Part shown: positions 20,448 to 23,362 of the stretch, in pieces
Numbering within the stretch: position 1 is the stretch's first letter
Layout: each line of letters opens with the position of its first letter
The notes under the pieces: generated by a model
Told to the model about the DNA's origin: nothing
Databases searched by the model: none
The model's input: the letters and a program-made list of their open reading frames with translations, nothing else
DNA from: an uncultured Candidatus Actinomarina sp.
Lineage (GTDB): Bacteria; Actinomycetota; Acidimicrobiia; Actinomarinales; Actinomarinaceae
Length of the DNA: 32,022 nt
Assembly: GCA_902593475.1 (NCBI GenBank)
Contig: CACJIM010000002.1
Location: 66,427 to 98,448, forward strand
Direction: 5' to 3'
Made by a program: the position numbers and the translations under genes

Positions 20448-20732
20448 ATGGAACAAGAAGATAGCTTTTTAGAATCCTTTGAAAATTTGGTAGACACTAT
20501 TAAAAGATTGGTTGTTAAACCAGTAAAAAGAGTGACTGGCTTTGCTTCATTAGGTTTCCTTTTAATTGTTTTGTTGTTCTTGTCGTTAATATTTATATTT
20601 ATAGGAATAATAAAAATTATGCAGGGTTTGGGGTTGCTCCTTGGAGTTAACCCAACTGGTTTCGCATTTGCTTCTCTAGGTATTCTGTTTTTATTTTTAT
20701 CAATTAAAAGTTATTGGAGAAAAAAAGTATGA
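20448..20732 (+). CDS. Small membrane protein upstream of trxB
   Basis: This 94-residue protein has a charged cytosolic N-terminus (MEQEDSFLESFENLVDTIKRL) and two hydrophobic helices at about 36-60 and 66-86. It ends in a basic YWRKKV tail, so both ends should be cytoplasmic. I do not recognise a defined family; the layout resembles small holin-like actinobacterial membrane proteins. Its stop overlaps the trxB ATG (ATGA), so the two are translationally coupled, and its own ATG has leaderless-type spacing from TAATAT. Confidence 0.75.
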   Translation: MEQEDSFLESFENLVDTIKRLVVKPVKRVTGFASLGFLLIVLLFLSLIFIFIGIIKIMQGLGLLLGVNPTGFAFASLGILFLFLSIKSYWRKKV

Positions 20733-21643
20733 AAAATGTAGCAATAATTGGTTCTGGACCAGCTGGATATACAGCTGGAATTTATGCAGGTAGGGCAAAT
20801 CTTGAACCAGTGCTTTTTGAAGGACTTGAATCTGGCGGTCAGCTAATGCTTACTACCGATGTTGAGAATTATCCTGGTTTTGTTGATGGAATAATGGGCC
20901 CTGAGCTAATGCAGGTTTTCAAAGGACAGGCTGAAAGATTTGGCACAGAAATTAAGACTGAAATTATTGACTCAATTGAAAATATTGATGGAGGTTTCAA
21001 ACTAACAAGCAGTAAAGGTGAGTACGAATTTAAATCTGTAATTATTGCATCGGGTGCGTCAGCTAGATGGCTTGGCGTTGAGGGTGAAAAAGAACTTCAA
21101 GGATATGGTGTTTCTGCTTGTGCAACCTGCGATGGATTCTTTTTTAAAGAAAAGGAAGTAGCAGTAGTTGGTGGTGGAGATTCAGCAATGGAAGAGGCTT
21201 TGTTTCTAACCAAGTTTGCAACAAAAGTGTATGTGATACATAGAAGAGATCAGTTTAGAGCTAGTCAAATAATGCAAGATAGGGTTTTAAATCATGAAAA
21301 AATAGAAGTGATTTGGAACAGTACTGTTGAAAAGATTATAGGTGATGGTTCTGTGTCTTCTGTAGTTCTAAAAAATACTGAAGACGGTTCAGAGTCTGAA
21401 CTTAACTTAGACGGCGTATTTGTAGCAATTGGTCATGATCCAAACGTAGAGTTTCTTAACAATTTTGTTGAACTAGATGAAAAGGGATATATAAAAACTG
21501 GGTTTACAACAGACACTAGTACTTCTGTTCCTGGAATCTTTGCAGCAGGAGATGTTGCAGATTCGATATATAGACAAGCAATTACTGCAGCGGGAACCGG
21601 GTGTCAGGCAGCTATAGATTCTGAAAGATGGTTAGATCATTAA
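20729..21643 (+). CDS. trxB: Thioredoxin reductase
   Basis: This 304-residue NADPH-dependent flavoenzyme reduces thioredoxin. The FAD site is IGSGPAGYTAG (7-17). The redox pair is Cys131 and Cys134 in SACATCDGFFF. The NADPH site is GGGDSAMEEALFL with HRRDQFRAS, and the second FAD motif is GIFAAGDVAD. The frame extends upstream to a TTG (20714), but GGAG 9 nt before the ATG at 20729 and homology both favour the ATG. No thioredoxin gene follows, unlike the trxB-trxA pair of mycobacteria. The partner must therefore be encoded elsewhere. Confidence 0.96.
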   Translation: MKNVAIIGSGPAGYTAGIYAGRANLEPVLFEGLESGGQLMLTTDVENYPGFVDGIMGPELMQVFKGQAERFGTEIKTEIIDSIENIDGGFKLTSSKGEYEFKSVIIASGASARWLGVEGEKELQGYGVSACATCDGFFFKEKEVAVVGGGDSAMEEALFLTKFATKVYVIHRRDQFRASQIMQDRVLNHEKIEVIWNSTVEKIIGDGSVSSVVLKNTEDGSESELNLDGVFVAIGHDPNVEFLNNFVELDEKGYIKTGFTTDTSTSVPGIFAAGDVADSIYRQAITAAGTGCQAAIDSERWLDH

Positions 21644-21653
21644 TCAAGAAAAC

Positions 21654-22562
21654 TTGAGTTATATTGATGAATTGTCATCTGATGAACTTTTAGATTTAAG
21701 TAACAAAATTCAAGCAGCAGGATATCAGTTTCCTGCTGATTCAGTTGAGTGTAAGTCCTTAGTAGAGCTTTTTTTAAATGATTACAATATAGAGAAAACT
21801 ATTTCTAAAGAAAATCTCTGGTTAGAGCTTTTAAATCATGGATACGATTTAGGTGATAGAATTCTCAATTTTTCGAATCCTGTTTTAAGAGGGTCTGATG
21901 TAGAAGAGCTTCAAGAAATGTTGTCTCGACTTGGGTTTTACTCTGAGCCAATCAACTCCGAATACACGAAAGAACTAATGAAAGCCGTGGAAGCATTTCA
22001 AGAAAATCGGGGACTTAGTGTAGATGGTGTTGTTGGGTTGAATACAGCCATTGAAATTAAAAAATTGATCAGACCAACTTTAGACAAGTCCCTTAATGAA
22101 GCAATTAAAGGCTTTAAGCCAGCTGGTTCAGCTTTGAATATTTGCATAAACATTGAAAACAATGGTGAGTACAGAGAACAAGTGGTGTTTTATGAATCAA
22201 TTAAGGAATCTGGAACAGAAAATGGAATGAACATTACTTTTGCTTCAGAAGCTGGGGAAGAGATGAGTAAGGAAAATATTATTTCTTTTGTAAACAAAAT
22301 AAACCCTTCACTTTTCTTAACTTTTGAAAACAGTGAAAAACAATCAGTAGATTATTTCAAAGGAAAGCACTCTGTAAGTAATATTGGTAAAAAATTGGCT
22401 GAAGACATTGGCAAAAAGTTAAATTTTGATGCAGTTGGTAAAAACAATATGCTTCTTAAAAATACTAAAGCGGTGTCCTTAGTAATAAATGGTAATTTTT
22501 ACCAAATTAATCCAAATACGGTTTTTGATATAGTTTCTGGAGTTTATTCAGAAATTTTTTAA
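21654..22562 (+). CDS. cwlM: CwlM-like peptidoglycan-binding protein with degenerate amidase domain
   Basis: This 302-residue protein sits between trxB and parB exactly where mycobacteria have CwlM. The first ~60 residues form a degenerate repeat, followed by LWLELLNHGYDLGDRILNFSNPVLRGSDVEELQEMLSRLGF and a clear peptidoglycan-binding domain ending GLSVDGVVGLNTA. The amidase_3-like region (about 155-302) lacks the PGHGG zinc motif: NICINIENNGEYREQV stands in its place. It also lacks the HxN ligand, with LFLTFENSEK instead. The domain skeleton (YFKG, GKKLAEDIGKKL) is still recognisable. Mycobacterial CwlM is a regulator of MurA and lipid II synthesis rather than an enzyme, so a regulatory role is inferred. 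The start is TTG, 10 bp after trxB. Confidence 0.85.
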   Translation: MSYIDELSSDELLDLSNKIQAAGYQFPADSVECKSLVELFLNDYNIEKTISKENLWLELLNHGYDLGDRILNFSNPVLRGSDVEELQEMLSRLGFYSEPINSEYTKELMKAVEAFQENRGLSVDGVVGLNTAIEIKKLIRPTLDKSLNEAIKGFKPAGSALNICINIENNGEYREQVVFYESIKESGTENGMNITFASEAGEEMSKENIISFVNKINPSLFLTFENSEKQSVDYFKGKHSVSNIGKKLAEDIGKKLNFDAVGKNNMLLKNTKAVSLVINGNFYQINPNTVFDIVSGVYSEIF

Positions 22563-22564
22563 AA

Positions 22565-23362
22565 CTAATTTAACTTCTCTATAAATTTTTTAAGCGCTTC
22601 GATGTTTTGAAAGTTTAGATTTACTTTAAATGATTTTCCTGATTTTTTGACTTGAACTTTTGAACCTAGAGTATTTTCAAGATCACTCTTAAGGTGTAGA
22701 ACTTCTTCGCTCACAGAAGACTTTCCATTTAACTCACTAACCTTTTCTTCAACCTTCCGACTATTTAGAGATAAGCTAATAATTTCAGAAAGTAATTTGT
22801 CTTGTAAGCTTTCATCTAAAACTATTAGAGGTCTTGCTTGACCAAAAGAAATTTTCTCTTCTTTTAAAGCTTCTTGAACTTTTTTACTCAAGTTAGAAAT
22901 GCGTAATAGGTTAGCAATAAATGGTCTGCTTTTTCCAACCAAAAGACCTATCTCTTTTGCGTTTAAGCCATGTGTTTCTTTTAAACTTTTGTAACCAAGT
23001 GCTTCTTCAATAGTGTTAAGTTGTGATCTTTGTACGTTTTCCACAAGACCAAGAACCGCAGCATCTTTGTCTGTTACGTCTTTAACTAAACAAGGAATGG
23101 TTTTCAGGCCAGCTGCTTTACTTGCTCGGAGCCTTCTTTCACCAGCAATTAATTGATATCTGTCATTACCCAAGAGTTGAACGATTATGGGTTGGATTAC
23201 ACCGCTTTTTTTAATTGATTCTGAAAGTTCACCTAGTTTTTTTTCATCAAAATATGTTCTTGCTTGCGTTTTGCTTTCAGAGATTTTTTCAATTTCGATA
23301 TCGACTACTTTAAATTCTCTAACATCTGTGTTTTCTATAAGCGAACTTAGGGATCTTTTCAT
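22565..23362 (-). CDS. parB: Chromosome partitioning protein ParB
   Basis: This is a 265-residue parS-binding CTPase. The N-terminal ParB/Sulfiredoxin domain contains LIAGERRLRASKAAGLKTIPCLV (the GERRxRA CTP-binding box). The HTH DNA-binding domain follows (LNAKEIGLLVGKSRPFIANLLRISNL, then ISFGQARPLI), and a short C-terminal dimerisation domain ends FKVNLNFQNIEALKKFIEKLN. It is slightly shorter than typical actinobacterial ParB (about 300-340) because the linkers are reduced. It overlaps parA by 4 bp (ATGA). A matching parS lies 0.8 kb away in rsmG. It is tail-to-tail with the CwlM-like gene with only 2 bp between. Confidence 0.96.
   Translation of the reverse strand: MKRSLSSLIENTDVREFKVVDIEIEKISESKTQARTYFDEKKLGELSESIKKSGVIQPIIVQLLGNDRYQLIAGERRLRASKAAGLKTIPCLVKDVTDKDAAVLGLVENVQRSQLNTIEEALGYKSLKETHGLNAKEIGLLVGKSRPFIANLLRISNLSKKVQEALKEEKISFGQARPLIVLDESLQDKLLSEIISLSLNSRKVEEKVSELNGKSSVSEEVLHLKSDLENTLGSKVQVKKSGKSFKVNLNFQNIEALKKFIEKLN

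Follow-up and report, generated by a model that had tools for sequence, protein, structure and literature searches.

The gene between trxB and parB in Candidatus Actinomarina is the syntenic CwlM orthologue of this genus, and its amidase-like domain cannot bind a catalytic zinc in the usual manner. Most likely (we put the probability at about 0.6), the protein is cytoplasmic and non-catalytic, and it regulates or scaffolds the supply of peptidoglycan precursors by binding a precursor or an enzyme of the pathway. That catalysis is dispensable in CwlM, a point raised by an earlier sequence-only reading of this DNA, is not new: it has been demonstrated in M. smegmatis, and degeneration of the site has been mapped across Actinobacteria (PMC4946905). 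What is new here is the extent of the further loss: the phospho-tail, the charges of the helix proposed to contact MurA (whose matching arginines are altered as well), FhaA, and the cytoplasmic domain of MurJ. We found no published work on the CwlM-like protein of Actinomarina, either in the literature on Actinomarina and peptidoglycan or in that on CwlM and pseudoenzymes.

The window (the whole stretch of 32,022 nucleotides that was analysed) belongs to a draft genome of about 0.84 Mb with 60% completeness, whose nearest named relatives are Candidatus Actinomarina. Because this genome is incomplete, statements of absence are based on the genus set. The CwlM relative that had been proposed between trxB and parB is indeed there (Table 1), and the protein contains all three of the expected motifs (LGDRIL, LQEMLSRLGF, and GLSVDGVVG). 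Its TTG start is 10 bp past trxB, and its stop is 2 bp short of the convergent parB. The gene order pcnA-nudix-GNAT-TM-trxB-cwlM-parB-parA is found at every Actinomarina locus, up to the contig limits. The position of cwlM is identical in all 33 of the named Actinomarina loci, and most other Acidimicrobiia loci also have the order trxB-cwlM-parB. We took orthology from the locus because tree-based proof failed through a long branch: the branch leading to Actinomarina is very long (2.2), and the protein tree does not put the genus within its class, although a single clade is not rejected either (p-AU 0.31). Just upstream of trxB in Actinomarina (20448–20732 in the window) is a 94-amino-acid protein with two hydrophobic stretches; no Pfam family was found for it, and another Acidimicrobiia genome (L045) has a weak relative at the equivalent place.

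Since the place of cwlM beside parB and trxB is kept throughout the class, the protein might act in chromosome segregation or redox through these neighbours. This is very improbable: cwlM is convergent to parB and not co-transcribed with it, and mycobacterial cwlM, which adjoins trxB and parB as well, has its role in the cell wall.

Table 1. Features of the cwlM-like gene and its neighbours (coordinates are positions in the window).
Feature	Coordinates	Strand	Basis
trxB, conserved upstream neighbour	20714..21643	+	Pyr_redox_2, synteny
CwlM-like protein gene, 302 aa (P0001)	21654..22562	+	TTG start, ORF call
Degenerate first peptidoglycan-binding-like helical domain, residues 1–73	21654..21872	+	Alignment, model
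LGDR motif, residues 66–69	21849..21860	+	Alignments
PG_binding_1 domain, intact, residues 79–131	21888..22046	+	Pfam E 3.9e-16
SLNEAIK linker helix, residues 146–152	22089..22109	+	Counterpart of mycobacterial REEEL MurA-contact helix
Amidase_3-like domain without zinc site, residues 161–302	22134..22559	+	Fold match, hhalign
Shortened loop ENNGE, residues 168–172, at the place of DPGHGG...E; first His and first Glu lost	22155..22169	+	Alignments, model secondary structure
Second zinc His position, E225 here; E, K, R, N, or A in the genus	22326..22328	+	Alignment
Catalytic/zinc Glu position, N279 here; N or F in the genus	22488..22490	+	Alignment
parB, convergent conserved neighbour	22565..23362	-	ParB_N + HTH_ParB, synteny

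The protein has three domains. Residues 1–73 are helical in the structural model and align with the first PG_binding domain of Acidimicrobiia homologues, which is intact there; Pfam gives no match for residues 1–73. The LGDR motif is invariant within the genus, and its G67, D68, and R69 are invariant in a 26-row alignment of the class, while mycobacterial-type sequences (assigned by an IREEEQ helix and a PTGT tail) have LGAR or LGSR in its place. The PG_binding_1 domain also has a structural match, to SleB (6tci). For the C-terminal domain, Pfam gave no Amidase_3 match, so this call rests on structure. An AlphaFold model, built with 55 relatives from named genome contigs, had a mean pLDDT of 88 and a pTM of 0.81, with pLDDT below 50 at residues 146–150 of the linker helix. 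Its best matches in the PDB are Amidase_3 enzymes: CwlV (1jwq; E = 2e-6, probability 1.00), AmiP (7b3n), and Rv3717 of M. tuberculosis (4m6i; target TM 0.63). Profiles of the genus's C-terminal domain and of four-ligand CwlM amidase domains agree weakly (hhalign E = 0.0003, probability 40%), and two Acidimicrobiia homologues (L036 and L045) still exceed the Pfam cut-off for Amidase_3. The amidase fold therefore stands. The sequence-only reading had also stated that the fold-spacing motifs are kept, which is correct for the fold and incorrect for the spacing: in the model, the first strand of the amidase-like domain joins the helix via a loop of five residues (168–172), where the first His and Glu would be. 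The N-terminus has no hydrophobic segment (the highest Kyte-Doolittle mean over 19 residues is 0.98, at residue 121), so by hydropathy the protein probably carries no secretion signal, as in the CwlM family.

Homologues whose site is intact have as zinc ligands the H of DPGHGG, an E, the H of SxHxN, and the E of VEPGF. Both PGHGG and SxHxN are absent from the window protein, and the four ligand columns contain N170, E172, E225, and N279; at none of them does the genus conserve a ligand. None of the 31 Actinomarina sequences has a His at either of the zinc-His positions, and none of 33 sequences from other Acidimicrobiia has both. In the rest of the phylum, 24 of 43 homologues keep all four ligands (HEHE). 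On the tree there are at least nine changes between intact and not-intact sites, so loss of the zinc site is recurrent in the CwlM family. As for a replacement metal site, 22 residues of the amidase-like domain are invariant in the genus; His, Cys, and Asp do not occur among them and Glu occurs once, so a substitute zinc triad is not supported. Overall, the proposed loss of the zinc site is borne out, both in this protein and across the lineage. A search of the genus for a further, genuine amidase found none.

A gene that has lost its catalytic residues, in reduced genomes of around 1 Mb, could simply be decaying and non-functional. We give this almost no weight, as the gene is present in 33 of 34 genus relatives (34 of 35 if the window's own genome is counted) with intact reading frames and a confident fold, and dN/dS is well below 1 in all domains. 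Within the genus, dN/dS is 0.07–0.24 for the amidase-like domain and 0.00–0.11 for the second PG-binding domain, which is the most constrained part of the protein. All domains are under purifying selection.

In mycobacteria, the essential role of CwlM is regulatory, and phosphorylation of its C-terminal tail by PknB activates MurA (PMC4946905). A REEEL helix of CwlM is predicted to contact R346 and R355 of MurA, with in vitro support (PMC12723410). The sequence-only reading had carried the MurA-regulator role over to this protein, which is not supported as it was put: the mycobacterial function is not simply transferable, because the REEEL glutamates, the phospho-tail, FhaA, and the cytoplasmic domain of MurJ are all absent in the genus. 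The protein stops at the amidase-like domain, without a PTG/TGT tail, in 31 of 31 genus sequences. The counterpart of the REEEL helix reads LNEAIK, with A150 and I151 in place of the contact glutamates, while most other Acidimicrobiia homologues have VREREx at this position. The VREREx helix is widespread among tail-less homologues (class loci L031–L050 and L104–L154), which hints that the proposed MurA contact may be older than the mycobacterial phospho-switch.

The partners have changed as well. FHA-domain ORFs number at most one per genus genome and are 116–124 amino acids long; the FhaA partner is absent. As had been noted, murJ is not at the trxB-cwlM-parB locus, but it has been relocated rather than lost: it is elsewhere in the window's genome (G000 C4:19879-21165), about 11 kb from an ORF with PASTA domains (C4:31650). 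The spacing between murJ and the PASTA-domain ORF is similar in genome G003. Where the contig leaves MurJ uncut, the ORF in the genus is 495–506 amino acids, which is too short for the cytoplasmic domain. The PASTA-domain ORF (about 600 amino acids, the size of a kinase) is kept. The suggested genome search for MurA, MurJ, and PknB turned up the first two, along with this kinase-sized PASTA-domain protein.

Numbered by the R-x-D-x-H-xxxx-R spacing in one mycobacterial-type MurA, the MurA of the genus has Q346, G348, Q350, and K355 versus R346, D348, H350, and R355 in mycobacteria. Residue 355 of MurA is R or K in 41 of 48 CwlM-positive rows and in 4 of 21 CwlM-negative rows, a covariation that is confounded by deep MurA types, reduces to four independent contrasts, is not significant, and is suggestive at most. 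Genomes without detectable CwlM (L289–L294 and L276–L288) mostly have one of two other MurA types, in which the 346–355 segment differs. Also, the Cys of the catalytic loop is replaced by Asp (PGGDQLG) in Actinomarina MurA (G000 C15:6999-8231, L084, and the genus loci), just as it is in mycobacterial-type MurA; among Acidimicrobiia genomes this loop has either Cys or Asp.

One possible but doubtful alternative is that MurA is still activated much as in mycobacteria, through a re-evolved interface between the SLNEA helix and Q346, G348, Q350, and K355 of MurA. The helix with its lysine (SLNEA-K) is strictly conserved in the genus, the MurA counterpart (DIQxGWQHAMIKG) is nearly fixed, both sides were altered in the same lineage, and genomes that lack CwlM mostly have MurA types without the arginines. 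However, the contact charges on the CwlM side are lost, the phospho-tail is missing, the helix has low model confidence, and the association of CwlM with the MurA arginines is the non-significant one of four contrasts given above. Furthermore, the mycobacterial interface was itself predicted by AlphaFold; it is supported in vitro, and its effects in vivo are mild (PMC12723410).

Slightly less probable still is that the amidase cleft has become a pocket for a muropeptide or UDP-MurNAc-pentapeptide, which would make the protein a precursor sensor instead of a MurA partner. Five genus-invariant polar residues (N169, S198, E199, Y283, and Q284) directly follow strands whose tips make up the catalytic edge of Amidase_3, and the second PG-binding domain is the most conserved. 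But the clustering of these residues was deduced from strand order only, and they are not common to the rest of the class. A related proposal, which we hold to be similarly unlikely, is that the circuit of kinase, CwlM, and MurA/MurJ has been dismantled in Actinomarina, leaving a pseudo-amidase that acts independently of phosphorylation and whose old active-site cleft binds precursors. If true, this would uncover a more ancient core function of CwlM, on top of which the mycobacterial signalling was built later.

Our preferred reading is a non-catalytic regulator or scaffold of precursor supply. The first PG-binding domain of the protein is eroded and the second is intact, and the domain with the Amidase_3 fold retains none of the zinc ligands. 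We infer the cytoplasmic location, the binding of precursor or enzyme, and the regulation; the binding surfaces may be the second PG-binding domain and possibly the edge of the former active site. If the partner is MurA, then the two must touch in another way than they do in mycobacteria. Because CwlM persists under strong selection without the zinc site, the phospho-tail, or the known partner contacts, an ancestral core role may be separable from the mycobacterial regulation, and the Actinomarina set offers a natural experiment on the interface predicted between CwlM and MurA. The CwlM family profile matches 260 of 296 genomes of the phylum. The homologue search of Boutte et al. required a detectable amidase domain (PMC4946905), so lineages whose domain is beyond the reach of Pfam were probably missed.

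Among known systems, mycobacterial CwlM (Rv3915 and MSMEG_6935) resembles the window protein in its locus, in having two PG-binding domains and a domain with the amidase fold, in the lack of an export signal, and in its degenerate zinc site. In CwlM of M. tuberculosis and M. smegmatis, key zinc ligands are not conserved, and mutating the remaining two is tolerated (Boutte 2016, PMC4946905); CwlM homologues throughout Actinobacteria are without secretion signals, and in some of them the site is degenerate (PMC4946905). Mycobacterial-type CwlM differs in that two ligand positions are kept (RERD), in the IREEEQ helix and the PTGT tail, and in the first PG-binding domain, which is eroded in the window protein. 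CwlM from other Acidimicrobiia shares the locus, the loss of the zinc site, and the lack of a mycobacterial-type tail, but the VREREx helix is retained in most of these proteins, as are both PG-binding domains. With Amidase_3 enzymes (CwlV 1jwq, AmiP 7b3n, and Rv3717 4m6i), the window protein has the fold in common, whereas its zinc ligands are gone, its active-site loop is shortened, and its match to them in sequence is undetectable. EnvC has a different fold and is periplasmic. What it shares is the general principle of a hydrolase fold that is retained for regulation. It is a degenerate peptidoglycan hydrolase that works as a regulator (cited in PMC4946905).
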